Shown in pieces: positions 11,896 to 46,111 of a stretch of DNA of 64,000 nt. The notes under the pieces are model-generated. The model did not search any database, was not told the DNA's origin, and was given only the letters and a program-made list of their open reading frames with translations. Source of the stretch: Halegenticoccus soli (lineage in GTDB: Archaea; Halobacteriota; Halobacteria; Halobacteriales; Haloferacaceae); the NCBI RefSeq assembly GCF_002844195.1, contig NZ_PEND01000003.1, positions 496,001 through 560,000 on the forward strand, given 5' to 3'. The position numbers and the translations under genes are program-made. The number at the start of each line of letters is the position of its first letter. Positions within the stretch are counted from its first letter, which is position 1.

Positions 11896-12074
11896 AAGCG
11901 CACGCTGTAACTGAGGTGTGAACTCGTCTCTCGATCGTCTGCAACGGGCGCTTTCACGGTGAAAAGGCCGTAATCATGTGATATCGGTGTCAATGCGACG
12001 GCAGGATCGTGGCACACATCAGGTGAGGTTCGTAGGGCTGTGATCGCCCCGTCTCTGGTCCGCCGTTCGCCTGT

Positions 12075-12449
12075 CAGCCGAGGCTGAAGGGGTCGGAGAC
12101 CTCTCCCGACTGGTCGTACCACACGGCCTTGGTCTGGAGGTACTCCTCGAGCACCCCGGTTCCGTTCTCGCGGCCGATTCCGCTGTCCTTGTACCCGCCG
12201 AACGGCATTCGGTACGATATCGTTCGGTACTCGTTCACCCACACCATCCCGGCCTCCAGCTTCTCGACCAGTCGATTGGCCTACCGCATGTCCTCGGTCC
12301 AGACGCTGGCGGCGAGTCCGTAGGGCGTGTCGTTGGCGAGAGCGACGACCTCGTCCTCGTCAGAGAACGAGATGACGCTCGCCACGGGGCCGAAGATCTC
12401 GTCCCGTGCCACGGCCATGTCGTTGTCGACGTCCGTGAGGACCGTCGGG
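12075..12449 (-). pseudogene. Aldehyde dehydrogenase, C-terminal fragment with an internal stop
   Basis: The minus strand reads as the last 125 residues of an aldehyde dehydrogenase: [20 protein letters not shown], then [20 protein letters not shown], an interruption by TAG at 12281-12283 just after SVWTEDMR, and then ANRLVEKLEAGMVWVNEYR and MPFGGYKDSGIGRENG. The catalytic Cys and NAD-binding parts are absent. It is cut off cleanly 50 bases before the divergent acyl-CoA synthetase gene. Non-functional. Confidence 0.85.
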
Positions 12450-12498
12450 CGAGCTCATAAACGCAAAACCTAAGTCCCGAGGTTGAATCGAAGAGGGC

Positions 12499-17055: not shown

Positions 17056-17955
17056 TTATTCTTCGATGCGTGCCTCAGTCCCAGCAAGACGCTCGAGCAC
17101 CTGAATAACGCCAGAGGTATCGTCACGCCCCAGCCCAATCTCTTCCATCGATTTGTACATTTCATGGGTGAGTTCTGTTGCTGGCATCGGTGATCCATAG
17201 GCCTCGCCTGCGTCCGTGGCGATTCGGAGATCCTTGTACTGGTAAGCGGCGAAGAAACCCGGGTTAAAGTTTCCACGGATCATCCGCGGTGCCCGATTAT
17301 CCAGTGCCCAGCACCCCGCGGCTCCGCCACTTATAGCATCGACGACGGCTTCGAGATCGGCCCCCGCCTTCTTGGCGAACACCAGTGCCTCGCTGATGGC
17401 CTCCATCGTGACAGAGACCACGATCTGGTTGCAGGCCTTTGCAACTTGCCCGGCCCCATTGGTGCCGCAATGGGTGAGAGTCTCGCCCACTGTCTCGAAA
17501 ACATCCCGGTGTTCTTCGAACGTCTCTTCGCTTCCACCGATCATGATGGACAGCGTGCCGTCGATGGCACCCTCCTCGCCCCCACTTATAGGGGCATCTA
17601 GCATCGAAACTCCCTTCTCAGCGAGGCGGTCTGCAATCTGCTTGGCCACGGTTGGCCTGATAGTTGACATATCTACGACGGTGTCTCCGGCCGTCACGCC
17701 GTGGATGATACCGTCGTCACCAAGAATGAGTGCCTCTACGACCTCCGAATCAGAAAGGCAGGTAATCGTTATATCCGCGCGTTCCCCTACCTCCTGGGGT
17801 GTTTCTGCCCGATCGGCTCCTAAAGACACGAGGTTATCGATAGGCTCAGGGGAGCGGTTGTATCCAACGACGGGATAGCCACCTTCAAGGAGATTCTCCG
17901 CCATCGGCTTTCCCATAATTCCAAGGCCTACGAAACCAACTAGTTTATTTGCCAT
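17056..17955 (-). CDS. 2-hydroxy-3-oxopropionate (tartronate semialdehyde) reductase-like beta-hydroxyacid dehydrogenase
   Basis: This 299-residue NAD(P)-dependent enzyme reduces tartronate semialdehyde to glycerate or handles a related beta-hydroxy acid. The Rossmann motif is GFVGLGIMGKPMAENLLEGG at the N-terminus, substrate-binding DAPISGGEEGAIDGTLSIMI near 119-138, and the catalytic Lys in GAGQVAKACNQIVV. The SGGExxAxxGTLSIMxGG form is that of GarR/GlxR rather than 3-hydroxyisobutyrate dehydrogenase. The start at 17955 gives the family N-terminus; the longer frame adds 28 unrelated residues. A GTATAGTAAC box lies about 30-40 bases upstream. It fits glycolate, glyoxylate or C4-acid catabolism. 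Confidence 0.85.
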   Translation of the reverse strand: MANKLVGFVGLGIMGKPMAENLLEGGYPVVGYNRSPEPIDNLVSLGADRAETPQEVGERADITITCLSDSEVVEALILGDDGIIHGVTAGDTVVDMSTIRPTVAKQIADRLAEKGVSMLDAPISGGEEGAIDGTLSIMIGGSEETFEEHRDVFETVGETLTHCGTNGAGQVAKACNQIVVSVTMEAISEALVFAKKAGADLEAVVDAISGGAAGCWALDNRAPRMIRGNFNPGFFAAYQYKDLRIATDAGEAYGSPMPATELTHEMYKSMEEIGLGRDDTSGVIQVLERLAGTEARIEE

Positions 17956-18253
17956 ACAATGGCACGTCACCACCGAACAAAAAGTGTTACTATACACCAG
18001 GGAGAGGGCGATGATTCGTCGACACCATCGGTAAGCCACGGAGGCCAGTAACCGAAAGGTTCAGGGCAGTACAGCGTCAGCGAACTCCCTGCTGGGGACC
18101 TCCGTCGACTTGGCAGACAATGCAGAGTCTTACCCCGGGATGAAGGGATGGCTGAGCTGCGTCCGTCACTATCACTGATTTGTCTATGAGATTGCCGCTC
18201 ATATAGGAGAGATATAACTCTATTTCTATGTGGCGGGGCGAGCCATACTCGTG

Positions 18254-19240
18254 TTAGAATGTCCGTTCAATGGCTGCGGTGAGTTCGCTCGTACCTGGCA
18301 GTACCTCATCTTCGAGTGGTGGACTAAACGGAATAGGCGTGTCTGGTACTCCGATACGTTGTGGAGGTGCGTCGAGTGAGAAGAACGCTGACTCAGTCAC
18401 ACGCGAGATGATCTCGCCGTGTAACCCATACGAGAGCGGACTTTCGTCGGCTACAACCAACCGTCCAGTCTTCTCGACGCTCTTGACGATGGTCGCTGTG
18501 TCAAGCGGCGAGAGCGTCTGCGGGTCGATCACCTCAATGTCGATAGCCTCCATTTTGTCGGCCACGCCGATGGCGTCACCGAGCAGGCGTTGCGTGGCTA
18601 CGACGGTAATATCATTGTCTTTGCGAACAATCTGAGCCTGGCCAAGCGGAATCGTGAATTCCTTGTCTTTTGGCACCTCACCTTCACGGTTGTAGATGGT
18701 TTTATTCTCGAAGAATACGATTGGATCATCCGATCGGATAGCTGCCTTCATGAGCCCCTTTGAGCTACGTGCAGTACCGGGGGCGACAGCCTTAATGCCC
18801 GGCAAGTGTGCAATGAGCGTGTGGACGGTACTGGAGTGCTGGGCAGCTGCGCTTAGGCCCGCCCCCTCAATGGCACGCACAGTCAGAGGCACCTTCGTTG
18901 CCCCTCCGAACATATATCGCATCTTCCCAGCTTGATTCATCAGCGGCTCGAAACAAATAGCGATGAAGTCCGCAAAACTCAAATTCACAATTGGTCGCAA
19001 ACCTGTAGCGGCTGCTCCAACGCCGGCACCTACTTGGGCGGTTTCACTGATTGGCGTGTCCCGCACACGGCCCCGGCCGAACTCCTCGAAGAGCCCCATC
19101 GTGATCTCAAACGAGCCGCCGTCCTCCTCGTCCTGTCCCATGAGAAAGACCTCATCATTAGCCATGAGTTCCTCACGGATAGCAGTCCGGAGCGCCTCGC
19201 GGATCGTTAATTCTTCTGTCAATTCAGTCACGTCACTCAT
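18254..19240 (-). CDS. 2-oxoacid (pyruvate/acetoin) dehydrogenase E1 component, beta subunit
   Basis: This 328-residue transketolase-like protein forms the E1 heterotetramer with the upstream alpha subunit. The family hallmarks are FLMGQDEEDGGSFEITMGL, RVRDTPISETAQVGAGVGAA, the FEPLMNQAGKMRYMFGG segment, and the C-terminal VIDPQTLSPLDTATIVKSVE and VVADESPLSYGLHGEI. It overlaps the alpha gene by 8 bases, so translation is coupled. No E2 lipoyl-transacetylase or E3 gene is in the window, so the enzyme must borrow them or work differently. A ruined paralogue lies at 26690-27614. Confidence 0.9.
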   Translation of the reverse strand: MSDVTELTEELTIREALRTAIREELMANDEVFLMGQDEEDGGSFEITMGLFEEFGRGRVRDTPISETAQVGAGVGAAATGLRPIVNLSFADFIAICFEPLMNQAGKMRYMFGGATKVPLTVRAIEGAGLSAAAQHSSTVHTLIAHLPGIKAVAPGTARSSKGLMKAAIRSDDPIVFFENKTIYNREGEVPKDKEFTIPLGQAQIVRKDNDITVVATQRLLGDAIGVADKMEAIDIEVIDPQTLSPLDTATIVKSVEKTGRLVVADESPLSYGLHGEIISRVTESAFFSLDAPPQRIGVPDTPIPFSPPLEDEVLPGTSELTAAIERTF

Positions 19241-20285
19241 ACATCATCACCTCTGTAAGAGTTTTTTCTGCTCTGCGTTGATTTCGGAAGTAGTCAATGT
19301 CGGAGCTCCCTTCGACGAATACATCGTCGTAGGCACATTCAGGATTGGGGAATGTCTGGTTGCGTGCGTATGTGACAGCATCCTCAACTTCGGCAACCAC
19401 TTCACTGCGCATATTAGCATACGCCGCACCGGTTAAATTCCTCTCTTCACGGAGTTGCGCTGCAAATGTGTCTATTGGATCCCGGTTTTCTCGCCACTCG
19501 TTTACCTCCTCTTCGCTCCGATAGGATTCAGGATCACCCTCATAATGTCCACGGAACCGGTAGGTCTTTGCCTCGATGAAGGTAGGACCGTCGCCCGCGG
19601 CGGCGCGTTCACGAGCGGTAGAGACGGCATCGTACACCGCAGTAACGTCCATTCCGTCGACAATAACGCTAGGAATGCCGTATGCCGCCGCACCATCGGC
19701 CAAATCATCGATGTTGTGCTGCTTCTCAAAACTCATCCCCTCAGAGTAGAGATTATTTTCGACAAGATAGACGGCGGGAAGATTCCACGTAGCAGCGAGG
19801 TTGATGGATTCATGTACTTGCCCTTCGGCAACTGCCCCGTCGCCGAGGAATGAGAGTCCAACCCAGTCTTTGTCGCGTATCTCTGCTGTGAGCGCCGCCC
19901 CGGTGGCGAGTGGGACCCCTGCGCCGACGATAGGTTGGGCGCCGAGTAACCCGTCGCTGAGCGATGCAGCGTGCATTGATCCACCTTTTCCCTCGCAGCA
20001 CCCTGTTTCACGACCGTAGAGTTCAGCCATAAGTCGATTAAGGTCAAGGCCCTTTGCAAGACAATGACCGTGTCCGCGATGAGTGCTTGTCACATAGTCA
20101 TCGCGTTCGAGCGCGCAGCACGCGCCGACTCCAACCGCTTCCTGCCCAATATAGAGATGCACGAACCCGGGAATCTCCCCGTCGGCGAAATTCTTGAGTA
20201 CGGCCTTTTCGAACTCTCTAATCGTCAGCATCTGGCGAAGGGCGTGACGTCGACCGTCTGGCTCACCTATGTCAACAGATGGCAT
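19233..20285 (-). CDS. 2-oxoacid (pyruvate/acetoin) dehydrogenase E1 component, alpha subunit
   Basis: This 350-residue thiamine-diphosphate subunit starts at 20285 (MPSVDIGEPDGRRHALRQML); the longer frame adds 57 residues unlike the family. The TPP motif runs from FLGDGAVAEGQVHESINLAA to VYLVENN. FIEAKTYRFRGHYEGDPESY contains the phosphorylation-loop-like region, and GAQPIVGAGVPLATGAALTA is typical of the PDHA/AcoA branch. A CTCTTATTC box is about 30 bases upstream on the minus strand. Pyruvate, acetoin and branched-chain 2-oxoacids are all possible substrates. The downstream beta gene completes E1. Confidence 0.9.
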   Translation of the reverse strand: MPSVDIGEPDGRRHALRQMLTIREFEKAVLKNFADGEIPGFVHLYIGQEAVGVGACCALERDDYVTSTHRGHGHCLAKGLDLNRLMAELYGRETGCCEGKGGSMHAASLSDGLLGAQPIVGAGVPLATGAALTAEIRDKDWVGLSFLGDGAVAEGQVHESINLAATWNLPAVYLVENNLYSEGMSFEKQHNIDDLADGAAAYGIPSVIVDGMDVTAVYDAVSTARERAAAGDGPTFIEAKTYRFRGHYEGDPESYRSEEEVNEWRENRDPIDTFAAQLREERNLTGAAYANMRSEVVAEVEDAVTYARNQTFPNPECAYDDVFVEGSSDIDYFRNQRRAEKTLTEVMMYE

Positions 20286-20513
20286 GCGATACGTAAATGT
20301 CCATCTACAACCGAATAAGAGTTCTGCTGGTTCAAAAAACGCCCCGTCAGTTAAATACTCCAAGTGCAGTATTGCACGCCGTCCACGCGGACACCTCAGG
20401 CGCAACCAACTACGCGTTCGAAACGCCGCAGAGTCGTCGGTGGACGCATTGGACACGCGCCGCTAGCCGATGTGAGATTCGGAGTCTCCACGGTCACTTT
20501 GCGTGGAAACCCG

Positions 20514-21914
20514 TTACTTGAGGCGCCGTTGTTCGGAGTTTGGAACGCATCGGCGAACCCGCTCGAAGTACTTTTCGTCGCCGATCTGACCGCCTTTCAG
20601 GGCAATCTCCAGTCCGTCGAACTGTCCCGTGCGGGCGCTCGCGCGACAGAGCGGCGCCCCAGGGAAGATCGGGGCAATCATCTCGACGGCGTACACATCG
20701 AGCGCCGGTGTAGCGTAACTGCTAGTGTCGCCGCCGGCGATGCAGACCCGCGAGGTATCCGTCCGCTCGAGAAATTCTCGGAGTAGTCGCCCCTGTTGTC
20801 GTCCGATCCGCCGGGCGACAGCTTCGGGAGGGATACCAAGGTCCTTGGCTTCCGCTCGCGTCTCCTCGATGGCGGGATCGTCGGGCCCGCGAGCCGTGTA
20901 GAGGATCGTCCCTCGGTGTTTCCGTATGGCCTCGGTCGCGCGTCTGATTGCGTTGGCTCCCTCGTCGTCGGCCTTGTCTGGATCGATTAGAGCGGTCGTG
21001 TCGAGCTTGATGTCCGCGTATCCGTGGTCGAGGGCCCACTCGATCTGCTCTGCGGTGACGGGCGAGGCACTCCCCGAAATAACGACGAGCGAATCAACCT
21101 CGGGGACCTGAGCGTCGCCGACGCGGTTGAATGCGAGGCCGACATCCTGCCAGTACGCCCCTAAGGCGTAGTCAAAGCCGGACGAACCGACTCCGAACGT
21201 CATTCCCCCGCCGTTCGTGGTGCGCTCCCAGATGACTCGTCCGAGAGTTGCGAGGTGATCGTCGGTTAACGTGTCGAAGATCACGATTTCTCCGTCCTCT
21301 TGCGCTTTCCGGACTGCGCGCCGCGCGCCCTCAACGCCGTGATCCACATCGATAACTGTGACCCCGGTGATCGACCGGTCGGTCTGTTCTCCGAGGTGAC
21401 GAGCGAGGTCGCTCTCGGTCATGGGGGTGGCTGGGTGCGTTCGCATCGTCGGGTGTCGGTCCAGCCGATAGGTCTCGTCGTCGACCGTCGCGAAGAGGTT
21501 CCCGAAGACGACGTACCTTCCTTGCGGTTCCATCGGGGGCACCCCGACGACGACAGGAACGAATGACGAGTCAAAAACGTCCTGGCCGATATCGATCGCG
21601 CGGCCGATGCTCCCCCGATCCGGCGCTGAATCGAACGTCGAGCAAACCTTGTACTGGAACAAGGTCGGATCAAGGTCCTCAATCGCCTTGAACGTCTCCC
21701 GCAGATGCACGTCCATCTCCACAGGCGTCATTGACCGGCTCTCTCCCGCGACGCCGATCGCCTGTAGGTCGGCGAAGCGACCGGTGAGATCGTCGGACCC
21801 TGGAGGTTCGAGAAAGAGCGCGGTCCGGACTCCGTGTCGGCTGAGCGCCTCAAGCGCGTCCGTGGAACCGGTGTAGTCGTCGCCGTAGTACGCTAGTAGC
21901 AAGTTGTCAGTCAT
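20514..21914 (-). CDS. Four-carbon acid sugar kinase family protein (DUF1537; OtnK/OiaK-like)
   Basis: This 466-residue kinase of the DUF1537 family phosphorylates acid sugars such as threonate, erythronate or 3-oxo-isoapionate. The N-terminal domain opens AYYGDDYTGSTDALEALSR, with the DDxTG motif that binds the acid sugar. The C-terminal nucleotide-binding domain has VCIAGGDTSSYATPALDV. The start at 21914 overlaps the end of the RuBisCO-like gene by 4 bases (ATGA), a strong sign of coupled translation and joint function; the much longer open frame upstream is antisense noise inside that gene. A kinase next to a RuBisCO-like protein is the arrangement of OiaK with OiaX/OiaT in D-apionate catabolism. 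Substrate assignment is inference. Confidence 0.85.
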   Translation of the reverse strand: MTDNLLLAYYGDDYTGSTDALEALSRHGVRTALFLEPPGSDDLTGRFADLQAIGVAGESRSMTPVEMDVHLRETFKAIEDLDPTLFQYKVCSTFDSAPDRGSIGRAIDIGQDVFDSSFVPVVVGVPPMEPQGRYVVFGNLFATVDDETYRLDRHPTMRTHPATPMTESDLARHLGEQTDRSITGVTVIDVDHGVEGARRAVRKAQEDGEIVIFDTLTDDHLATLGRVIWERTTNGGGMTFGVGSSGFDYALGAYWQDVGLAFNRVGDAQVPEVDSLVVISGSASPVTAEQIEWALDHGYADIKLDTTALIDPDKADDEGANAIRRATEAIRKHRGTILYTARGPDDPAIEETRAEAKDLGIPPEAVARRIGRQQGRLLREFLERTDTSRVCIAGGDTSSYATPALDVYAVEMIAPIFPGAPLCRASARTGQFDGLEIALKGGQIGDEKYFERVRRCVPNSEQRRLK

Positions 21915-23173
21915 CGTTCGTAGTATTCGATCGCCGTCGCGAGTTCTTCGCAGGTCTGTGCATACTCCTCCAGGGGAACGCCGCGTAGTGCGGCGTCCCA
22001 TCCTTGACGGATGTGGGCGACGCCTGCGGCGGGGCCGTCCGGATGACCCAGAATCCCACCTCCGGCGAGATACATGAGGTCCGTATTTCCAAGCGCCTCG
22101 TACGTGTCGTGGGCCTGCCCCGCCCACTGACGCGAGGAAAACACCGGCATCGCGGTATCGTCCTCGTCAACGATCGGCGTCTGGCAGGCTTGCGCCGACG
22201 CGACGACCGACTCGTTCGACTCAGCGAACTTGTTTCGAAGGCCGTTGACGTGGAGGTGATCGACGCCGGCGAGGCGATAGAGTTTCTGGAAGACCCCGTA
22301 GTCGAACCCGAGCTGTGGGCACCGCGAGAGGCCTCCCCAGCCGTTTCGGTGCCCGTGAATTGGGAGATCACACTCACGCCGAAGTTTCCTCACGCCGGCC
22401 AGTCCGACGCTGTTGACGCTCACCATTACACAGTTACCGCCCGCATCGGTGATGCAATCAGACAGTTCCAGCATCTCGTCGACATCGCCGGTGATGTTAC
22501 ACGCGTACATCACTTCCGTTCCAGTTCGATCGCGGTGGGCGTCTACGACCGACATCACTTCGACGATTCTGTCTTCGACCGGTGAGTACGGCGGATTCGC
22601 GAGAAGTTCGTCGTCCTTGACGAAATCCACGCCTGCTTCGACGACGGTTTCAACCCTATCGGCCGTTTCTTCGGGGCTCAACCCCACGTTCGGCTTGATG
22701 ATCGTTCCGATGATCGGACGCTCCCACACGTCGAGTATCTCGCGCGTCCTGTCGATGCCGAACTGTGGGCCTGGATACTCGCGGGCCAGCGAATCCGGAA
22801 CATCGACATCGACGAGACGAATCCCCGAGAGCTCCTGAAGTTCGAACAGGTTTCCCCCGACCGTCGTAAGGAGGTTCGGAAGAGACGCTCCAATGTTCGC
22901 GAGTGGATACGAGATGACTACTTCTGCCTGGGTGTACGTCGGCGACTGGGCGTTGGACGGTGATATCGATCCCGGCAGCGACGGCTGCTCGGTCGATCCG
23001 CGTTCCTCGATACGTTCGACCGTCGCTCCGTGGCGCTCGCGCAACTCGTTGGTCTCTCCCGGCACATCGACGAAGGTTCCGGAGGACTGCTCGTCGGCCA
23101 TGGCCTCTGCCGCGTCCGCGACGCCGGATGGGGTCTCAATCCAGTACATCGCCTCCACGCGCTCATTTGGCAT
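21911..23173 (-). CDS. RuBisCO-like protein (form IV), candidate 3-oxo-isoapionate-4-phosphate decarboxylase or hydrolase
   Basis: This 420-residue protein has the RuBisCO large-subunit fold. The N-terminal domain opens with YWIETPSGVADAAEAMADEQ and SSGTF. Barrel motifs: Lys160 in GTIIKPNVGLSPEE; GVDFVKDDELLANPPYSP with Lys186 at the carbamate position plus Asp188 and Glu189 as metal ligands; His275-Arg276 in IHGHRNGWG; a loop-6-like stretch NGLRNKFAESN; and AGGGILGHPDG where genuine RuBisCO has SGG. The metal site is kept but the phosphate-binding serine and loop 6 differ, so carboxylation of ribulose bisphosphate is unlikely. The overlapping DUF1537 kinase downstream points to the RuBisCO-like enzymes of D-apionate breakdown, which decarboxylate or cleave 3-oxo-isoapionate 4-phosphate. 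I cannot distinguish those two reactions. Confidence 0.9.
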   Translation of the reverse strand: MPNERVEAMYWIETPSGVADAAEAMADEQSSGTFVDVPGETNELRERHGATVERIEERGSTEQPSLPGSISPSNAQSPTYTQAEVVISYPLANIGASLPNLLTTVGGNLFELQELSGIRLVDVDVPDSLAREYPGPQFGIDRTREILDVWERPIIGTIIKPNVGLSPEETADRVETVVEAGVDFVKDDELLANPPYSPVEDRIVEVMSVVDAHRDRTGTEVMYACNITGDVDEMLELSDCITDAGGNCVMVSVNSVGLAGVRKLRRECDLPIHGHRNGWGGLSRCPQLGFDYGVFQKLYRLAGVDHLHVNGLRNKFAESNESVVASAQACQTPIVDEDDTAMPVFSSRQWAGQAHDTYEALGNTDLMYLAGGGILGHPDGPAAGVAHIRQGWDAALRGVPLEEYAQTCEELATAIEYYER

Positions 23174-25777: not shown

Positions 25778-26563
25778 ATGGATGGCATAACATTCGATTT
25801 TAACGGAAAGGTCGCCGTAGTCACGGGCGGCAGTTCCGGCATCGGTCGGGCCATCGCGACCCAGTTTGGCGCGGCGGGAGCGACCGTGATCAACGCCGAC
25901 CTCCGAGCCAAACCGAAGGCGCCGACCGAGACGGTGCCGACCCACGAGTCGATCGAGGACGACGGCGGTCGAGCGGCTTTCGTCGAAACGGATGTCTCGA
26001 ACCCCGAGGACCTCGCTACGGTGATCGAGGCAGCCCGCGAGTACGGCGGCGTCGACGTCATGGTGAACAACGCCGGCATCCACCGGTCTGGATCGGTGCG
26101 GGAGGTTACCGTCGAGGATTACGAACACGTCGCCTGCGTCAACACGAAAGGCGTCCTCTTCGGATGTCAGGTGGCGGCCAACGATATACAAGCGCGCGGC
26201 AGCGGTGGGTCGATCATCAACACAGCCTCGATCAGATACGACACGGCGTTGCCTGACCAACTCCTCTACAACATGAGCAAGGGCGCCGTCGGAATGATAA
26301 CTCGAAGCGCGGCGATGGAACTGGTCGACGATGGGATTCGCGTCAACGCCATCGCGCCGGGGCGGACCGTGACGTCGATTACAGGCAACGCCGAGCACGC
26401 AGAGAAAATGGCCGACGAGGGATCGCTCGTGAAGCCGATTCCGATAGACCGAGTCGCCGATGCCGACGAGATCGCGCCGGCGGTGCTCTTTCTTGCGAGC
26501 TCCGCAGCATCGTACGTCACCGGGGAGATCTTCGTCGTCGATGGCGGATGGAGCATCTACTGA
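25778..26563 (+). CDS. Short-chain dehydrogenase/reductase (SDR), classical type
   Basis: This 261-residue NAD(P)-dependent oxidoreductase is probably a sugar or polyol dehydrogenase. The cofactor motif is VVTGGSSGIGRAIATQFG, NNAG occurs in VMVNNAGIHRSG, the active-site pair is Tyr-x-x-x-Lys in LLYNMSKGAVGM, and the C-terminus has YVTGEIFVVDGGWSIY. A 15-residue insertion (KPKAPTETVPTHESIEDDGG) after the second strand is longer than usual; the acidic Asp of INADLRAK at the end of that strand suggests NAD preference. It is divergent from the decayed repeat gene and is followed by the ruined E1 beta copy. The specific alcohol is unknown. Confidence 0.88.
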   Translation: MDGITFDFNGKVAVVTGGSSGIGRAIATQFGAAGATVINADLRAKPKAPTETVPTHESIEDDGGRAAFVETDVSNPEDLATVIEAAREYGGVDVMVNNAGIHRSGSVREVTVEDYEHVACVNTKGVLFGCQVAANDIQARGSGGSIINTASIRYDTALPDQLLYNMSKGAVGMITRSAAMELVDDGIRVNAIAPGRTVTSITGNAEHAEKMADEGSLVKPIPIDRVADADEIAPAVLFLASSAASYVTGEIFVVDGGWSIY

Positions 26564-37748: not shown

Positions 37749-38141
37749 TTACCCGTCTGTAACTCGTTCGCTTGGCCCCACCTGCCACCTACGGTAGCGA
37801 ATGCCAACATGGCGATACCGCTGAAACAAATAAAGAGCGGAAGTGAGCAATGGTGTCACTATGAATGATCCGACGATGTACATCCACCACGTAGGCTTCC
37901 ACTCCTGTCCAGCGTCCTGAATCTCTCTTGCGTCATAATAGAATCCGAATAATGCGGCGATAGTGAACGTTAAGAATACGAACAGCCATGCTTGAAGAGC
38001 TAAAAGTGATGCCGTTTGCGTCAGGTTCAATGAGCCACCGATGAGGAGAAACAAATCAAGAACTATCGTCCACAGGACGACCGCGACATGGCTCCACCAC
38101 CAGTTCGAACGAACGGCCACCAATTGTGCGTCTGACGTCAT
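37749..38141 (-). CDS. Small four-helix membrane protein, family not recognised
   Basis: This 130-residue protein starts at 38141 (MTSDAQLVAVRSNWWWSHVA), nine residues inside the longest frame. Three or four hydrophobic helices are visible: VAVVLWTIVLDLFLLIGGSL, LALQAWLFVFLTFTIAALFG, and WMYIVGSFIVTPLLTSALYL, with a charged C-terminus (QRYRHVGIRYRRWQVGPSER). A charged loop with DAREIQDAGQEWKP separates the second and third helices. It is upstream of the thermosome gene on the same strand and divergent from the hydroxyacid dehydrogenase. No function can be assigned. Confidence 0.7.
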   Translation of the reverse strand: MTSDAQLVAVRSNWWWSHVAVVLWTIVLDLFLLIGGSLNLTQTASLLALQAWLFVFLTFTIAALFGFYYDAREIQDAGQEWKPTWWMYIVGSFIVTPLLTSALYLFQRYRHVGIRYRRWQVGPSERVTDG

Positions 38142-38263
38142 GGATGGGGCTTCGTGTCTCTTGCCCAAATAGGCTCCGTCGAAGATCCATCATTACGAGA
38201 AATGCCATATTAGCTAACACTCCCACAACTTATTTAAGCCCCTTTATTGTGACTTGTAACCGT

Positions 38264-39220
38264 ATGACGGTAGGAGTCATCGGTCTCGGAAAGGTAGGAA
38301 ACGGTATCAGTAAAAATCTCACTGAGCAGGGCTTCGAGACTATAGGGTTCGACCTCTCAGAAGAGGCCTGCGAGGCCGCTGCCGAACACGGTATAGACAT
38401 CGCCGAGGACAGCGCTGAGGTTGCAGAGCGTGCGTCGGTCATTATCCTCTCCCTGCCCCACCCTGACGCAAGTCGTAATGCAGTTAACGCGATTGTGGAG
38501 CATGGGGATCCTGGGACAGATATTTTTGATACAAGTACACTCTCTGCACTTACTGCACGCGAACTCGGCGAGCAGGCAAAGGAGGAAGACATGTATTACT
38601 TTGACAGCCCCATCACAGGCGGAGAGGTTGGAGCACAGGCGGGCGAGCTCACGATCATGATGGGCGGTGATCCTGAACGTATTGAGGCTCAGCGGGATAT
38701 CCTCTCGGCCATCGCAAGCAACGTCTACCACATCGGCGATGTTGGCGACGGCCAGTTCGTTAAGCTTATTCACAACCATGTCGGCCAGACTACACTTATC
38801 ATTTTCATTGAGGGTGTGCTGTTGGCCGACGAGTTCGGTGTTGATCCCTCGACGCTATATCGGACGCTTCGACACTGGACGCAAATCTACGACGATAAGC
38901 TGGATTCGTTCTTCTCTAACGAGTTCGATAAGCACTTCGACGAGCACTTCGCCCTTGATGACGCCGAGGGTATTTATCGAAACAAGTTCCATCTCGACGT
39001 AGCCCACAAGGATCTCGTCGAACTCAAAAGTCTTGCCGAAAAGTACGAGACTTACCTCCCGCTTGGAAACTTCGTTGAACAATTCCACCGTGAAGGTATG
39101 AATGCCGGGTACGACAATCGCCCACATCCTGATTTGCTTCAATTTTACTCTGACATGTTCGATAAAGATCTGAAGTCGACCGAGGAGATCCGAAGCAAGA
39201 GCAAAGGCAGGATCATCTAA
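38264..39220 (+). CDS. Beta-hydroxyacid dehydrogenase (3-hydroxyisobutyrate/6-phosphogluconate-like)
   Basis: This 318-residue NAD(P)-binding enzyme has Rossmann VIGLGKVGNGISKNL at the N-terminus, FDTSTLSALTARELG, substrate loop DSPITGGEVGAQAGELTIMM, and the catalytic Lys in GQFVKLIHNHVGQTTL. The last 120 residues (QIYDDKLDSFFSNEFDKHFD onward) differ from GarR or MmsB, with an unusual aromatic-rich insertion, so the substrate is probably not simple tartronate semialdehyde. The ATG at 38264 follows an ACTTATTTAAG box by 27-36 bases; the longer frame includes that promoter. It may be functionally linked to the aldehyde dehydrogenase operon that starts 114 bases downstream. Confidence 0.85.
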   Translation: MTVGVIGLGKVGNGISKNLTEQGFETIGFDLSEEACEAAAEHGIDIAEDSAEVAERASVIILSLPHPDASRNAVNAIVEHGDPGTDIFDTSTLSALTARELGEQAKEEDMYYFDSPITGGEVGAQAGELTIMMGGDPERIEAQRDILSAIASNVYHIGDVGDGQFVKLIHNHVGQTTLIIFIEGVLLADEFGVDPSTLYRTLRHWTQIYDDKLDSFFSNEFDKHFDEHFALDDAEGIYRNKFHLDVAHKDLVELKSLAEKYETYLPLGNFVEQFHREGMNAGYDNRPHPDLLQFYSDMFDKDLKSTEEIRSKSKGRII

Positions 39221-39333
39221 GGGGTTAACAGTCAGCTATTTCCTCCTCAATGGAGGAGCGATGATTATGTTTCAGCCATATATCTTCGAAACCACAATAA
39301 AGTATATGTGAGACCCAGTCAGTGTTCCTACTG

Positions 39334-40785
39334 ATGTCGGAAGAAAATCAACTTGGAGGTCAGTATATCGCTGGCGAATGGCGAGTACCCTCCGGAACTG
39401 AGAGCATCGAAGTTCGAAATCCAACGACTGAGGAAGTAATCACAGATATCCCAAACGCGACCTCAGAGGAGATCGATTCGGCCATAAACGCTGCCGGTAA
39501 GGCCCAAATTGACTGGGGACGCCGACCGGCCCGCGAACGCGGTGAACTTGTTCGAGAAGTGGCAGAGCTCATGATGAACCACCAATCAGAACTTGCAGAT
39601 CTCATCGTCAAAGAGCAGGGAAAACCTCGTAACGTAGCATTGGGAGAAATCGAGGCATCTGCGGACCTCTGTGAATACATGGCCGAGTGGGACCGTCGTA
39701 TCGAGGGTGATATCCTTCCTGGCGATACGCGTCGAGAGTCAATTCACCTGCAGCGACACCCGCTTGGAGTCATCGCGGGTATCATCCCCTGGAACTATCC
39801 CATTGCGGTCTTTATACGCAAGTTCGCGCCTGCGCTTGTCGCTGGGAACACCCTTGTTGCAAAGCCAAGCGAAGAGACGCCGCTCGCAACGCTACGGCTC
39901 ACCGAACTCATTGACGAGGAGATTGACCTTCCCGATGGCGTGCTGAACATCGTTACTGGTGGCGGTGAGGTTGGCACTCAGCTCGTTTCATCTGACTCGA
40001 TCGATATGATATCGATGACCGGGAGTGTCGAAACGGGTAAGGCCATCATGAGAGCAGCCGCCGACAATCTGACCAAAGTCTCGCTTGAACTCGGCGGGAA
40101 GGCCCCGGTCATTGTCTGGAAGGACGCGGATATTGACCAAGCCGTAGAAGATATTCTGACAGCACGCATTACCAATACGGGACAAGTATGTACCTGTGCT
40201 GAGCGAGTGTATGTCCACGGTGACGTCCGAGAGGAATTCGAAGAGCGCTACGTCGAAGCAGCCAAGAACGTCACACTCGGCCAACCTGAGGACAATCCCG
40301 ATATGGGACCACAAGTTAACGAACGGGAGCTCGAAAAGACGGAGGCAGCCGTCGAACGGGCCCGTAATGATGGTGCGGAAGTATTGTTGGGCGGTTCTCG
40401 CCCGTCGGGTAATAGTTTCGAAAGAGGCTACTGGTACGAACCGACGGTCATCACTGACGTCAACCAGGATATGGATATCATGCAGAACGAGGTGTTCGGC
40501 CCAGTGACGCCCATTATGGAGATTGACTCACTGGAGAACGCTGTTGAGTATGCCAATGACTCACGCTACGGACTCTCCTCGTACGTGTTCACAGATAGCT
40601 ACAGGACAGCGATGCGCGTTGCCGAGGAACTGGAGTTCGGCGAGACGTACATTAATCGGACGCTCGGTGAATCGTGGCACGGCCACCATATCGGCTGGAA
40701 TGAATCCGGCCTAGGCGGCGAAGACGGTAAGTACGGCTTCCTTAAGTACACGCAATTAAAGACAGTTTACCACAATTACAACTGA
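39334..40785 (+). CDS. Aldehyde dehydrogenase, lactaldehyde/glycolaldehyde type (AldA-like)
   Basis: This NAD-dependent aldehyde dehydrogenase has 483 residues. The motifs are PWNYPIAVFIRKFAPALVAG, KPSEETPLATLRL, catalytic Glu in KVSLELGGKAPVIV, and nucleophile Cys in NTGQVCTCAERVYV. The C-terminal GESWHGHHIGWNESGLGGED segment is the distinctive feature of E. coli AldA-type lactaldehyde and glycolaldehyde dehydrogenases. The start at 39334 (MSEENQLGGQYIAG) is used; the longer frame adds only four residues. It heads an operon with two VOC proteins and a DRL-like protein, spaced 16, 7 and 5 bases. Glycolaldehyde from pentose or tetrose cleavage is a plausible substrate. Confidence 0.93.
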   Translation: MSEENQLGGQYIAGEWRVPSGTESIEVRNPTTEEVITDIPNATSEEIDSAINAAGKAQIDWGRRPARERGELVREVAELMMNHQSELADLIVKEQGKPRNVALGEIEASADLCEYMAEWDRRIEGDILPGDTRRESIHLQRHPLGVIAGIIPWNYPIAVFIRKFAPALVAGNTLVAKPSEETPLATLRLTELIDEEIDLPDGVLNIVTGGGEVGTQLVSSDSIDMISMTGSVETGKAIMRAAADNLTKVSLELGGKAPVIVWKDADIDQAVEDILTARITNTGQVCTCAERVYVHGDVREEFEERYVEAAKNVTLGQPEDNPDMGPQVNERELEKTEAAVERARNDGAEVLLGGSRPSGNSFERGYWYEPTVITDVNQDMDIMQNEVFGPVTPIMEIDSLENAVEYANDSRYGLSSYVFTDSYRTAMRVAEELEFGETYINRTLGESWHGHHIGWNESGLGGEDGKYGFLKYTQLKTVYHNYN

Positions 40786-40801
40786 ATCCACGGAGACTAC
40801 A

Positions 40802-41227
40802 ATGATTGGACAATCCCACCACTACGGCGTGACAGTATCAGACATGGACGAGGCTCTCGGATTCTACCGAGACACTCTCGGCATGGAGGAACTAGATCAG
40901 CTTTCCTTTGCGAGCGAGGAATTCAGTAAGTTTGTCGGTGTTGAGAACGTCGACGTTGACCTCGTCTTCCTCGATGCGGATGGCTGTGCGGTCGAACTGC
41001 TCGAATACAACCATCCTTCGGGAGACAACGCCAATGACGGCGTCTCGAACAACGATATCGGCGCAGCGCACTTCTGCCTCGAAGTGGACGACCTCGATGC
41101 AATCTATGATGACCTCCGGTCGGATGGCGTCGAATTCATCAATCCGCCACAAACACTCGAGAACGGAGCTGAAGTGGCCTACATGTACGATCCAGACGGT
41201 AACGTAGTTGAGTTGCTTTCGGAGTGA
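40802..41227 (+). CDS. VOC-superfamily (glyoxalase/dioxygenase fold) protein, first of a pair
   Basis: This 141-residue protein has the paired beta-alpha-beta-beta-beta modules of the vicinal oxygen chelate superfamily. His5 or His6 of QSHHYGVTVSD, Glu of CAVELLEYNHPS, His of AAHFCLEVDDL and Glu near the end of DGNVVELLSE give the usual two-His two-Glu metal site. The members nearest in form are methylmalonyl-CoA epimerases and glyoxalase I relatives. It sits 16 bases after the aldehyde dehydrogenase stop and 7 bases before the second VOC gene. Possible roles are epimerisation or isomerisation of an alpha-hydroxy or keto acid; none is proven. Confidence 0.85.
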   Translation: MIGQSHHYGVTVSDMDEALGFYRDTLGMEELDQLSFASEEFSKFVGVENVDVDLVFLDADGCAVELLEYNHPSGDNANDGVSNNDIGAAHFCLEVDDLDAIYDDLRSDGVEFINPPQTLENGAEVAYMYDPDGNVVELLSE

Positions 41228-41234
41228 ATCCCCT

Positions 41235-41663
41235 ATGAGCGAGAAAGACGAGATATTCGAGCGCATTCACCACGTGGCGTACACTGTTGGCGATATTGAC
41301 GACTACCGCCCGTTCTTCGAGAACGTCCTCGGCATGACCTTGGTCGACTATCGCGAGATGCCCGAGGCTGGCTACGATGCAGCGGTCTACCAAGTCGGAG
41401 AGACCTACATTGAAGTCCAAGAGCCACAGGGACACCCCGAAATAGAGGCGTTTCATGAGGAGCACGGTAACGGACTTAACCATGTGGCCTACGAAGTCAA
41501 CGATCTTGATGTAGCAGTCGAAAACTTCGCGGACCAAGGCATCGAACCTGAGTGGGACGAAGCCATCCTTGCGCCAACCTTCCCAGGATGTAAGCTTCTA
41601 GACATGGATGTAGAAACGAGCGAGGGGATCTACCTTCAATTAGTCGAAGAACTCGAAAACTAA
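41235..41663 (+). CDS. VOC-superfamily protein, second of a pair (methylmalonyl-CoA epimerase-like)
   Basis: This 142-residue VOC protein starts at 41235 (MSEKDEIFERIHHVAYTVGD); the longer frame overlaps the previous gene. Metal ligands are likely His of IHHVAYTVGD, Glu of YIEVQEPQGH, His of NGLNHVAYEVND and Glu of EGIYLQLVEE. The order HHVAYxV, EVQEP and LNHVAYEV resembles methylmalonyl-CoA epimerase more than the first VOC protein does. It has 7 bases upstream and 5 downstream to its neighbours, so the four genes surely share a transcript. The two VOC proteins are distinct rather than recent duplicates. Confidence 0.85.
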   Translation: MSEKDEIFERIHHVAYTVGDIDDYRPFFENVLGMTLVDYREMPEAGYDAAVYQVGETYIEVQEPQGHPEIEAFHEEHGNGLNHVAYEVNDLDVAVENFADQGIEPEWDEAILAPTFPGCKLLDMDVETSEGIYLQLVEELEN

Positions 41664-41668
41664 GACTC

Positions 41669-43015
41669 ATGTTCAATGTTCCGTCGCAACTCACCGAACT
41701 TAACGAACCAATTACTGTCGGCGTTATTGGCGCTGGGTTATTTGGGAGACGACTGGTCGACCAAGTAGAACGCGCTCCTGGCATGCAGACGGCCGCCATC
41801 GCCGATCTAGAAGTAGACAAAGCAGTAGATGCCTTCAACGGAGCTGACGTAGGTGATATTAAGCAGGTTGATGATCCCGACGCCCTCGAAGCGACCATCG
41901 CTGATGGCATGCGAGCAGTTACCGATGATGGTATCGTCCTAGCTGAAAGCGATGTCGACGTCGTTGTTGAAGCAACAGGTATCCCTGAGGTGGGTGCCCG
42001 TCACGCCTATACAGCCATTATGGACAAAAAACATGTAGTGATGGTCACCGTCGAGGCCGACACAGTCGTCGGACCAATCCTCGCAAAACTCGCCGATAGG
42101 GTTGGAGTGACTTACTCAATGGCGTACGGCGACCAGCCTGCACTCATCGCCGAGCTATATGATTGGGCTCAGACCGTCGGGCTTGATGTTGTCGCCGCCG
42201 GGAAAGGGAATCCTTTCATCAATGAGTACAAATACGGGACCCCTGACGATGTCTTCGAGCGGTGGGGATTCGATAAGAAGTTCGTCGAAGAGAATCACCT
42301 CAACCCGTACATGTATAACTCGTTCCTTGACGGGACAAAGGTCGCCGTCGAAATGTGCGCTGTCGCTAACGCGACTGGGTTGAAGCCAGACGTGTCGGGC
42401 ATGCACATACCAGCGGCCGAACTCGAAGAGATACCAAAACGTATGCGTCCGCAGGAAGATGGAGGATTACTAGAAAACTCCGGCGTCGTTGACACGATAA
42501 GCTCATTAAATCCTGACGGAAGTGAGATCAAAAACGACATTGAATTTGGCGTCTGGATCGTCACGACAACACCGAACGAAGGTGTCCGAGAGTATCTCAA
42601 CCAGTACGGTGGATCTGGAATGTACGTCGCAAATGCTGGGAAGTACCAGCTCTTCTACCGGCCGTTCCACCTCCCTGGGACCGAAACCTCCGTGAGCGTC
42701 GCCAGCGCGGCACTCCGGAATGAACCGACTGGAGTTCCGAAACAGCATGTAGCCGAGGTTGTCGGCGCAGCCAAGCGCGACCTCTCGGCCGGTGAAGAAC
42801 TAGACGGTGGCGGTGGATACACAGTCTACGGTATGATTGAAGACGCTGAGACGGCCACACGGTCCAACTATGTCCCTCTCGAACTCCTAGAGGGTGCAAC
42901 GCTTGTCTCCGATGTCGAGAAGGACACGATTGTCACCGCCGACGATGTCCAACTGGATCAAGAATCATTTCTCTATCGCCTTCGAATGCTCGAAGAGTCC
43001 GACAAGACCTTGTAG
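41669..43015 (+). CDS. DRL-like NAD(P)-dependent oxidoreductase (reductoisomerase-related) with C-terminal SAF-like domain
   Basis: This 448-residue protein has an N-terminal Rossmann domain (TVGVIGAGLFGRRLVDQVER, VDVVVEATGIPEVGARHAYT), a central catalytic region (VTVEADTVVGPILAKLADRV, YSMAYGDQPALIAELYDW, GKGNPFINEYKYGTPDDVFE) and a C-terminal SAF-like stretch (GYTVYGMIEDAETATR, then a TIVTADDVQL motif). That architecture matches the family of Brucella DRL, which performs the DXP reductoisomerase step in bacteria without DXR. Haloarchaea make isoprenoids by a mevalonate route, so another substrate is expected; a hydroxymethyl- or carbon-migrating oxidoisomerase in sugar-acid breakdown would fit the chemistry and neighbours. 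That role is inference. A T-rich tract follows the stop. Confidence 0.8.
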   Translation: MFNVPSQLTELNEPITVGVIGAGLFGRRLVDQVERAPGMQTAAIADLEVDKAVDAFNGADVGDIKQVDDPDALEATIADGMRAVTDDGIVLAESDVDVVVEATGIPEVGARHAYTAIMDKKHVVMVTVEADTVVGPILAKLADRVGVTYSMAYGDQPALIAELYDWAQTVGLDVVAAGKGNPFINEYKYGTPDDVFERWGFDKKFVEENHLNPYMYNSFLDGTKVAVEMCAVANATGLKPDVSGMHIPAAELEEIPKRMRPQEDGGLLENSGVVDTISSLNPDGSEIKNDIEFGVWIVTTTPNEGVREYLNQYGGSGMYVANAGKYQLFYRPFHLPGTETSVSVASAALRNEPTGVPKQHVAEVVGAAKRDLSAGEELDGGGGYTVYGMIEDAETATRSNYVPLELLEGATLVSDVEKDTIVTADDVQLDQESFLYRLRMLEESDKTL

Positions 43016-43027
43016 GCTTTGCTATCC

Positions 43028-43050
43028 CCATTTCTTCAATTTTATTTTTA
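43028..43050 (+). terminator. T-rich terminator of the ALDH-VOC-VOC-DRL operon
   Basis: Within 35 bases of the DRL stop the coding strand carries TTCTTCAATTTTATTTTTAA, a typical archaeal oligo-T termination signal without a hairpin. Confidence 0.5.
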
Positions 43051-43505
43051 ATACCGGCTATTCTGGATAGCAAATACTCATGGCTATATAGGTCGTTGAA
43101 AACAACGATAGAGCCGTGGGGAATTCGCGATTTTCATCGTGGAAGGGTTTCATCGAGATCGTTGGTAACTTCGCCTAGCGGCCAAACGACTTCGCCATGA
43201 GGACCTATAGCGGTAATCGACCACGCCATACTTCGCTCATTCGGGTAGTTACTCATTACCTCCCAGACGTCCGTCGAAGGTAACATACGGATTATTCATG
43301 ATTAGCTGGACGGTTCGGTCAATCTAGTCCGATAACGGAATAGCGATACCCAGGATCCGGTGACCGAGTCTTTAACCGCACCGAGATACCTCTCTGTCTA
43401 TTGGAACCTTGATTCTAATTATAGAGTAGATTGTAGTTGAAGATGGTTAACGTCAGGATCCAACGTTTATACCTGACGCAACTCCCCAGCCTTGACGAGG
43501 AAATA
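43051..43505. other. Intergenic stretch between convergent genes
   Basis: No gene is visible. The stretch separates the DRL operon from the convergent 3-hydroxyacyl-CoA dehydrogenase gene. Confidence 0.45.
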
Positions 43506-44432
43506 TTATTCATCTAGTACCCTCTTGAGCGCCGCCAACTGCTTGTCCCGGCGGTGGGTGACCTCCTCCGGAGGAATATCGTACTCGAAGAATCCAGCAC
43601 CGTCCTCAATGCCGCCATGGTTCGCTTGAAGGTACTTCTCGAAAAGGATACTCGGTTCATCGTCGTCACAGAGGTAGGGATAAAGATTCCTCGCGTTGGT
43701 CTCAAAGAGGTCAAGACCAGCGATGTCTGTCGTTTCGAACGGACCAACGACAGAAGTCCGGCGGGCGTATCCATCACGAACTGCCATGTTGATATCTTCA
43801 ATCGAGGCCACCCCCTTTTCTGCGAGGTGCATACATTCGCGGATGACGGCGAACTGAATTCGGTTCCAAACGAATCCAGGAACGTCTCGCTTGACGACTA
43901 CCGGAGTTCTGTCAACCGTTTCGAGGTACGTCACCGTTCTATCTACTGTCTCGTCACTAGTCTCTTCACCGCGAATGACCTCCACAGGCGTCAGTAGGTA
44001 CGGAGGGTACCACCAGTGACAGCCGATGATTCTGTTGGCCGCGTCATTGCCCGCCGCAATGTCAGTAATAGGAATACCGGAAGTGTTAGTCGCCAATACC
44101 GCGTCATCCTCCGTCGAGTCCGCAAGTGTCGCGAACATCTCCCGTTTGGTGTCAAGATCTTCTGAGACAGTTTCGATGACAAGCTCCGCGTCGCTGACCT
44201 CCTCCGCGCAGTCGAGTGTGAATGAGATCGAATTCATGACTGATTTAGGTAACACGGACACGAGTTCCATCTCGTCTTGAAACTGGGTGACCTTCTTAAT
44301 ACGCTCACGAGCATTGTCGAGGTTCGATTGTCGATGATCAATGAGCGTTACGTTCCAATCGTGCAGTGCAAAGTGAGCGGCAAGTCCGTGTCCCATGTTC
44401 CCTGCACCGACAACTGCTACCACGCCAGTCAT
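43506..44432 (-). CDS. 3-hydroxyacyl-CoA dehydrogenase family protein
   Basis: This 308-residue NAD-dependent enzyme starts at 44432 (MTGVVAVVGAGNMGHGLAAH), which gives the standard N-terminal Rossmann fold. It has SDAELVIETVSEDLDTKREM, LATNTSGIPITDIAA and GCHWWYPPYLLTPVEVIRGE, followed by the helical C-terminal domain VKRDVPGFVWNRIQFAVIRE and GPFETTDIAGLDLFE. The catalytic His-Glu pair corresponds to GCHWWYPP and TPVEVIRG. HWWYPP instead of the usual HFFNP suggests a substrate other than straight-chain 3-hydroxybutyryl-CoA, as in L-gulonate or carnitine dehydrogenase relatives. It stands alone and is convergent with the DRL operon. Confidence 0.85.
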   Translation of the reverse strand: MTGVVAVVGAGNMGHGLAAHFALHDWNVTLIDHRQSNLDNARERIKKVTQFQDEMELVSVLPKSVMNSISFTLDCAEEVSDAELVIETVSEDLDTKREMFATLADSTEDDAVLATNTSGIPITDIAAGNDAANRIIGCHWWYPPYLLTPVEVIRGEETSDETVDRTVTYLETVDRTPVVVKRDVPGFVWNRIQFAVIRECMHLAEKGVASIEDINMAVRDGYARRTSVVGPFETTDIAGLDLFETNARNLYPYLCDDDEPSILFEKYLQANHGGIEDGAGFFEYDIPPEEVTHRRDKQLAALKRVLDE

Positions 44433-45004
44433 AACCAACACAATGCCAGCGGACAATACTAAACTTTCTCCCTACGCCTCCAATAGCATCATTATCGGCA
44501 CCAGGCGTAATAGAGCGCTCTCTTCCGCAATTACAATCGGCTACTAGCGGCACTATTTTGCCGTCTTTTCCTATCTCTTGACCCCCTTCCGTTTGTACCA
44601 CTGTGCTACTAAGTACCTAAGGAACGGGCCCGCACTGGCGGCCGTGCAGGTGGTAAGCGAGATGGTAAACATCATTTTCTGTATCCAGCTCGCCGGATCT
44701 GTGTCAATGGGACTCGCCCACAACCAGTGCATCGTCCGTCGATTCGTCTTCGGTGACGCTTAGAGCGTCGCGATCTCACTTCATTCCAGTACCATCGCCT
44801 GTTCTCAGCGATATAGTCAAATGGATCTACTAGAACAGGAGGACGTCGTCTTCGTTCTTATCCATCACATGTATGAGAGATCAGTTCCATCGAGTAGATA
44901 AACCGTACTATCCGGCGTTCCTGCTTCAGCCTTCATCAGACTTATCGGCCGCAGAAATATCTATCTTTTACCTGGCCCGGTCATGGCAATACCGCTGACT
45001 GAAC
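44433..45004. other. 570-base stretch without a supported gene
   Basis: Short frames only. It separates two minus-strand dehydrogenase genes, and I see no regulatory motif beyond ordinary AT-rich runs. Confidence 0.4.
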
Positions 45005-46111
45005 TCAAGCATCGAAGGGGCCCAGGACTGAACTTTTGATTCCCGACTGTCTCGCAACATCTGCGAGCAGGCTAAGCGTCTCGTCGTGAAACGGTATGCC
45101 TTCTTCGAGCCGCTTCTGTCGCTTCTCGTATTCGATTTCCCCCGGAAGTACCACACGATCACCCTTCGCAGAGGGACCCATCGGTATCTCCTCGGAATGA
45201 TCAGCGCTGTGGACTAACCTGACAAGTGCCTCCACGCGCCGCCGGTTTGCCTCGTATGTCGAAAAATATTCGGGATCGACGAAGACGAACATTGCGCCGT
45301 TGTTGACACGCCGTTCATTACACTGGCCAGAGACCTGGTGATTCGCTATAATACCGGCGAATAACTCTGCGATCACTGCGAGGCCAAATCCCTTGTATCC
45401 CGCCGTGAGACCACCGAGTGGTAACATTGCTCCCTGTTTCTCTTCTTCGTAAGCCCGTGCGGTAGTGATTGCCTCGCCTAACTCATCAATAGCCCAGCCT
45501 TTGGGAAGTGGTTGATCCTCTATATACCGTTTTGTTATCTTTCCGTGGGCGACTTGACTAGTGGCCATATCAAGGACTACCGGATGAGGGAGCACATCAA
45601 ACGTGGGAACGCCGAATGCCAATGGGTTGGTCGGCAGCAGGCGTTCAGCACTTCCTGGTACCGCCACGAGCGGAGAGGTGCCGCCGGTGTTGACGAAGGC
45701 AGCAAAACCGATCCCAGCGGCTGCCGCTCGCTCAGCCCATTCACCGACGCGGCCAAGGTGGGTTGCATTTCGGACTCCAACGATGGCGGAGCCGCTATCA
45801 CTAGCGAGTTCAATACCGACATCAACGGCGCGCCGGCCAACTACCTGTCCGTACTGGAAGTTACCATTGACCTGCGCGGTCGTTGGACTCAGCCGTTCGA
45901 TTTCGGGGGTGGCTCGAGGACGGATTTCGCCATTCTCGATCATCTCGCGGTAAAAAGTTCCCATGCGGATGACTCCATGCGAACCGTGGCCGCGGAGGTC
46001 AGACTCAACAAGCGATTCTGCTACCTCGGCGGCAACTTGATTGGATGTACCAAGTGCCGAAACTAGTTTTATGGCTAATGACTCTAGCTCGGTTACGTCG
46101 ATCCGTCGCAT
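45005..46111 (-). CDS. Malate/L-lactate dehydrogenase family oxidoreductase (Ldh2/YlbC type)
   Basis: This 368-residue NAD(P)-dependent 2-hydroxyacid dehydrogenase has its own fold, unrelated to classical malate dehydrogenase. Signature segments are SDLRGHGSHGVIRMGTFYRE with the catalytic His, VVGRRAVDVGIELASDSGSA, FVNTGGTSPLVAVPGSAERL, NPLAFGVPTFDVLPHPVVLD, and GGLTAGYKGFGLAVIAELFA. Members oxidise ureidoglycolate, 2,3-diketogulonate, sulfolactate or L-malate. All motifs are intact and the length is normal. It is not in an operon. In this setting oxidation or reduction of a sugar-derived hydroxy acid is the likely role. Confidence 0.9.
   Translation of the reverse strand: MRRIDVTELESLAIKLVSALGTSNQVAAEVAESLVESDLRGHGSHGVIRMGTFYREMIENGEIRPRATPEIERLSPTTAQVNGNFQYGQVVGRRAVDVGIELASDSGSAIVGVRNATHLGRVGEWAERAAAAGIGFAAFVNTGGTSPLVAVPGSAERLLPTNPLAFGVPTFDVLPHPVVLDMATSQVAHGKITKRYIEDQPLPKGWAIDELGEAITTARAYEEEKQGAMLPLGGLTAGYKGFGLAVIAELFAGIIANHQVSGQCNERRVNNGAMFVFVDPEYFSTYEANRRRVEALVRLVHSADHSEEIPMGPSAKGDRVVLPGEIEYEKRQKRLEEGIPFHDETLSLLADVARQSGIKSSVLGPFDA

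Follow-up and report, generated by a model that had tools for sequence, protein, structure and literature searches.

DRL-A, a DXR-II-like oxidoreductase encoded in the haloarchaeon Halegenticoccus soli, has in our estimate about an even chance of being an NAD-linked oxidoisomerase that makes 3-oxo-isoapionate, and so of standing in for the non-homologous ApnO in some haloarchaea. If so, the RuBisCO-like-protein (RLP) pathway would be completed in archaea that have no ApnO, a rare reaction (oxidation with hydroxymethyl migration) would have two separate origins, in families unrelated to each other, and a first function could be given to a large, uncharacterised relative of an enzyme that is an antibiotic target. 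The gene lies in a stretch of 64,000 nucleotides, referred to below as the window, whose features are collected in Table 1 together with related loci in other genomes.

Table 1. Features of the window and related loci elsewhere (L numbers denote other loci)
Feature	Position	Strand	Remarks
DRL-A	41669..43015	+	DXR-II-like NAD(P) oxidoreductase; Rossmann, DRL_cat and SAF; proposed 3-oxo-isoapionate-forming oxidoisomerase
HIBADH / 2-hydroxy-3-oxopropionate reductase-like dehydrogenase	38126..39220	+	Relative follows OiaK in G069 and G071
Aldehyde dehydrogenase (ALDH), AldA-like	39322..40785	+	PRK10090, 563.7 bits, above cut-off of 500
VOC1, glyoxalase superfamily	40802..41227	+
VOC2	41208..41663	+	Glyoxalase_4; sub-cut-off match to methylmalonyl-CoA epimerase; overlaps VOC1, with an uncertain start
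3HCDH-type dehydrogenase	43506..44456	-	Best NCBIfam match FHMPC 5-dehydrogenase, below cut-off
RuBisCO-like protein (RLP)	21911..23173	-	Closest NCBIfam OiaX, 479 bits against cut-off of 700
DUF1537 kinase	20514..22127	-	Closest NCBIfam OiaK, 479.5 bits against cut-off of 700
SDR1	25778..26563	+	43% to SDR of an ApnO-type OiaX cluster
HIBADH2 and PDH-type E1 beta/alpha genes	17056..20456	-	In line with OiaK
Thermosome/TCP-1-like gene	36040-37680		Divergent; 322 bits, NCBIfam cut-off 450
Thermosome/TCP-1-like gene, other loci	L027:16411-18057, L028:3110-4804, L029:2436-4100, L030:16545-18185
Acetate-CoA ligase, ADP-forming type	12499-14637
Acetate-CoA ligase, other loci	L023:2143-4479, L090:524-3055, L100:2629-4743
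DXR-II-type gene with FGGY kinase	L036:9624-12756 (G369), L037:7561-10518 (G244), L038:2235-12833 (G417), L051:648-13194 (Priestia plasmid)

Fold and family placement of DRL-A

The DRL-A reading frame runs uninterrupted from ATG to stop and encodes 448 amino acids, in which Pfam identified DRL_cat (3.8e-52), SAF (6e-7) and NAD_binding_3 (2e-5). By phmmer its PDB matches were Brucella DRL alone (3upy and 3upl; E 9e-68, residues 9-443). An AlphaFold model based on 36 sequences reached a pLDDT of 94.1, and comparison of the predicted structure with Brucella DRL, a check proposed in the first-pass annotation, gave 3upl as the closest structure (Z 50.2, 1.7 A over 423 residues), with DXR-I (Z ~19) and homoserine dehydrogenase (Z ~16.6) ranking after it. 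The latter resembles DRL-A in its N-terminal NAD domain and distantly in fold (Z ~16), but DRL-A has DRL_cat and a C-terminal SAF, and Pfam matched no homoserine dehydrogenase catalytic domain in it, NAD_binding_3 alone being in common. Compared with the orthologue in a genome of the same genus (G008), DRL-A has a dN of 0.064 and a dS of 0.93, and the gene is under purifying selection. IspG/GcpE was looked for and not found in the window genome, nor was IspG found in the nine DRL-A genomes searched. The end-to-end match to Brucella DRL and a genome without IspG thus uphold the earlier description of a DRL-family protein in an organism without the MEP pathway.

Besides functional DXR-II, the DRL family includes the two uncharacterised clades DLO1 and DLO2; K191, K193 and T229 are the fosmidomycin anchors of DXR-II, R320 is among its dimer-interface residues, and DLO1 has a hydrophobic residue at position 229 (PMC3847144). 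We compared these positions (Brucella numbering) across haloarchaeal group A, which consists of the window protein and nine relatives. The active-site comparison gave a divided answer: the core residues D225, K228 and E232 are kept, as are H250, K191 and R320, but two substrate anchors are replaced, K193 by N in every member and T229 by V or P. The window protein has V at position 229, hydrophobic as in DLO1. In the family tree, group A fell with haloarchaeal group B (support 91), and DXR-II with haloarchaeal group C formed a separate clade (100). All members of haloarchaeal groups A, B and C carry Asp46, where beta-2 ends, and this position is D or E in all 91 other DLO-side rows of the alignment; Brucella has SARR there, and the Asp points to NAD. 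DRL-A shares with the Brucella enzyme full-length homology, fold, dimer-interface Arg, GKG loop and Asp/Lys/Glu core, and differs from it in the two anchors, in the NAD-type Asp and in a host without the MEP pathway. Judged by its position outside the DXR-II clade and its lack of T229, it belongs with the DXR-II-like oxidoreductases (DLO), for which our literature search returned no assigned function.

Linkage to OiaX and OiaK and complementarity with ApnO

The HIBADH-type, ALDH, VOC1, VOC2 and DRL-A genes follow one another on the plus strand, with the 3HCDH-type gene downstream on the opposite strand. DRL-A is thus the last gene of an ALDH-VOC-VOC operon, as first annotated, with a HIBADH-type gene ahead of it. 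The RLP and DUF1537 kinase genes lie ~18.5 kb away; the kinase reading frame starts inside the RLP gene, and its domain begins at about residue 72. The DRL/3HCDH/Ldh2 genes (38126-46111) have a GC3 of ~0.54-0.63, and RLP and OiaK (20514-23173) one of 0.71-0.72, a difference suggesting that the two clusters may have arrived separately. The thermosome/TCP-1-like gene is found near the DRL-A cluster in five genomes (43-77% identity), and the acetate-CoA ligase is a recurrent neighbour of DRL-A/OiaX clusters (61-72% identity).

We examined the association with RLP across 391 haloarchaeal genomes. OiaX orthologues formed a distinct class (E <1e-170, at least 60% identity), followed by a drop to ordinary RuBisCO at E ~1e-62, and were present in 11 genomes. 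DRL_cat was detected in 16 genomes, 7 of which carry group A. DRL-A and OiaX coincided in five (hypergeometric p 1.3e-7, for a small and phylogenetically non-independent sample), in every case on one contig and within about 20 kb. The first-pass annotation had made its reading depend on DRL relatives co-occurring with the RLP/kinase pair, and they do so in five of the seven DRL-A genomes, often as near neighbours. The two genes are ~3 kb apart in G069 and G071, where ALDH-VOC-VOC-DRL is followed by two genes, RLP-DUF1537, one further gene and HIBADH. Elsewhere the distance is 15 kb (the Halomarina PSR21 plasmid record), 16 kb (G075), 17 kb (G144, on a single 48-kb contig), 18 kb (G339) or 19 kb (G351). 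None of the sampled genomes with haloarchaeal DRL groups B or C had an OiaX orthologue. OiaX was also absent from two DRL-A genomes, G378 and G366, and from the 60 kb read of G450, an out-of-sample genome with DRL-A and 3HCDH. In G366 the DRL-A gene is split by a frameshift into two reading frames (L035:7286-8439). Our literature search found nothing on haloarchaeal RLP/kinase pathways.

For comparison, an OiaX-OiaK cluster of Microvirga contains, besides these two genes, ones for a Gfo/Idh/MocA dehydrogenase, a large hypothetical protein and a PGDH_C protein. Clusters of this type are listed as supplying an apiose dehydrogenase, an apionolactonase, an apionate oxidoisomerase, a kinase and a decarboxylase (PMC11747546). 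PGDH_C is represented by structure 5t57, deposited as a semialdehyde dehydrogenase NAD-binding protein, and weakly resembles ketol-acid reductoisomerase, in keeping with a reaction that involves migration. By elimination among the cluster functions, and in line with work on apiose, we take the PGDH_C protein to be ApnO (EC 1.1.1.421). A whole-genome search of the window genome found no PGDH_C/ApnO, nor is the domain present in DRL-A itself, so the earlier remark that no ApnO-like gene was visible now extends to the entire genome. Across the sample, ApnO/PGDH_C occurred in 7 of 391 genomes, and 6 of the 7 also have OiaX. Among the 11 OiaX genomes the division was clean, five having DRL-A alone and six ApnO alone, with none having both or neither; the chance of so perfect a split at those totals is 1/462. 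G071, which is outside the unbiased sample, likewise has DRL without ApnO. OiaX with ApnO was also found on four plasmid records, for which the plasmid sequence alone was read (Haloarcula JP-L23, Halalkalicoccus FCH27, Haloterrigena salifodinae and Natrinema A869).

DRL-A and ApnO are both present in G144 and G008, two genomes found through DRL. The OiaX-ApnO pair of G008 is on another contig than the DRL-side cluster, whose own OiaX was lost by a deletion joining OiaK residue 189 to HIBADH2 residue 248. The scar (L096:9713-10268) fuses OiaK residues 84-189 to HIBADH2 residues 248-327; OiaX and both E1 genes are gone, and the IclR gene at this locus remains 97% identical. An IS605 OrfB/TnpB-like gene lies between DRL-A and 3HCDH in the same genome (L027:7893-9158).

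The two types also exchange within a shared cluster. Natronosalvus (DRL) and Haloterrigena KLK7 (ApnO) have in common an SDR-VOC-hypothetical-OiaX-OiaK run (62, 40, 64, 72 and 64%, respectively). DRL and ApnO types are interleaved in both the OiaX and OiaK trees, at least three changes being needed on each, and the starred branches of the OiaK tree force three. If OiaX and OiaK are the same for the two types, the enzyme ahead of them should yield the same product, 3-oxo-isoapionate.

Proposed reaction and competing explanations

ApnO oxidises C2 of apionate and moves a hydroxymethyl group. DXR-type enzymes carry out the same class of chemistry, shifting a carbon as they reduce the substrate, and would act as oxidoisomerases if run in reverse. 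We propose that DRL-A, with its DXR-II fold, would work in the oxidative direction, using NAD+ to oxidise D-apionate (or the C2 epimer) at its C2 hydroxyl and shifting a hydroxymethyl group to give 3-oxo-isoapionate, which OiaK (DUF1537) would phosphorylate and OiaX (RLP) would then decarboxylate. By feeding OiaK and then OiaX, DRL-A would substitute for ApnO, having the same place beside these genes and, as proposed, the same product. The two proteins are nonetheless of unrelated families, ApnO combining PGDH_C (PF16896) with a KARI-like NAD domain and DRL-A having DRL_cat and SAF. An unphosphorylated acid sugar would suit a DRL fold that has an NAD site but lacks the complete set of substrate anchors; loss of K193 and T229 is as expected if the substrate has no phosphate, because OiaK would add it later. 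That DRL-A is an analogue of the ApnO-type upstream step, as suggested in the first-pass annotation, is now considerably likelier than it was as an inference from sequence alone: it is linked to OiaX/OiaK and occupies the sampled OiaX genomes without ApnO, although its 3HCDH companion and its OiaX-less relatives count on the other side, as do G144 and G008 with both enzymes, the single RLP neighbour among the bacterial relatives and the below-cut-off scores of the window's OiaX and OiaK.

The OiaX-less relatives, in G378 and G366, are in line with an alternative that we regard as unlikely, namely that the substrate of DRL-A is a different acid sugar, branched or linear, and that the gene lies near OiaX only because acid-sugar genes gather in catabolic islands. 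The bacterial relatives, mostly found with ABM, HIBADH, TRAP and other kinase genes, and the different GC3 of the DRL and RLP clusters of the window (~0.57 vs 0.71) are in its favour. Clustering in islands, however, predicts neither that the 11 OiaX genomes divide cleanly 5/6 between DRL-A and ApnO nor that the two are swapped inside one conserved cluster.

A live rival, though about as unlikely, is that the 3HCDH-type enzyme fills the ApnO slot, oxidising C3 of isoapionate (2-C-hydroxymethyl-tetronate) to 3-oxo-isoapionate, while DRL-A does another step such as an upstream isomer interconversion. The 3HCDH family includes beta-hydroxyacid dehydrogenases, orthologues (at least 49%) were present in all DRL-A genomes searched, OiaX-less ones included, and among the OiaX genomes without DRL one was found in G102 alone. 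G102, however, has 3HCDH and ApnO together, so the presence of 3HCDH does not make ApnO dispensable in that genome. Moreover, in G069 and G071 the 3HCDH gene is about 42-62 kb off whereas DRL-A is beside OiaX, and the C3 hydroxyl of D-apionate is tertiary and not oxidisable. The linkage to OiaX and the chemistry favour DRL-A over 3HCDH as the probable maker of the 3-oxo acid. Because 3HCDH tracks DRL-A in every genome, the pair, rather than DRL-A alone, may replace ApnO.

We give little credence to DRL-A being a plain 2-hydroxyacid dehydrogenase without carbon migration, whose product a VOC protein isomerises. Its architecture is homoserine-dehydrogenase-like, VOC genes adjoin it in four genomes, and VOC2 has a distant relative (36% over 91 aa) in the VOC next to OiaX of ApnO-type clusters. 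Those clusters, however, retain VOC genes too, with the migration there being the work of ApnO, and most DRL-A loci do not have the VOC pair adjacent. Least credible is a role as a DXP reductoisomerase of the Brucella type (DXR-II), which the full-length homology and near-identical fold would allow and which the K193N/T229V replacements, the clade outside DXR-II, the NAD-type Asp46 and the lack of IspG in nine DRL-A genomes together rule out.

Bacterial relatives and other sugar-kinase loci

With DRL-A as a single-protein query, our scan of contigs returned no matches; an alignment-based scan identified 80 DRL relatives, nearly all bacterial. An RLP was within 10 kb of the DRL gene at just one of these 80 loci, in a genome that has ApnO too, indicating that the OiaX link is mainly a feature of haloarchaeal group A. 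Methylobacterium platani, whose genome carries ApnO, has a contiguous run of DRL (10001-11290), ABM (11395-11673), OiaX (11853-13094) and OiaK (13076-14455). Other bacterial relatives are often beside an ABM protein, HIBADH, TRAP transporters or other kinases. In Rhizobiales (L046:9995-16082, L047, L052, L055 and others) a conserved operon joins a DRL-like gene, an ABM-domain 'quinol monooxygenase' and a HIBADH-type dehydrogenase, usually with a TRAP transporter and gluconokinase. On Paracoccus versutus pTAV3 (L201:5971-12808) a run of TRAP transporter, otnK and otnC genes has a distant DRL-family member at its head, otnK and otnC encoding 3-oxo-tetronate kinase and decarboxylase; this is a second link of the DRL family to DUF1537 kinases.

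More tentatively, and with the balance of probability against it, the DRL/DLO fold might constitute a second family of acid-sugar oxidoisomerases, of independent evolutionary origin, feeding DUF1537 kinases and RLP decarboxylases in archaea and bacteria, of which DXR-II would be a member that isoprenoid synthesis employs in the reverse direction. In that case the convergence of DXR-I and DXR-II would have a parallel, in a second reaction, in ApnO and DRL-A. Reading DRL-A as an oxidoisomerase would make the origin of DXR-II testable.

Finally, DXR-II-type genes with the GKGK motif adjoin an FGGY sugar kinase gene in three haloarchaea and on a Priestia plasmid (Table 1). PDH/acetoin-type E1 genes are present at L036, L038 and L051, with a full E1-E3 set in Priestia, a dihydrolipoyl-dehydrogenase-like gene at L038, and ABC transporter genes at L036 and L038. 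Our literature search found nothing on methylerythritol catabolism. These loci look like a route for 2-C-methyl-erythritol, in which the kinase would form MEP, DXR-II run oxidatively would convert it to DXP, and a TPP complex would split DXP into acetyl-CoA and glyceraldehyde 3-phosphate.
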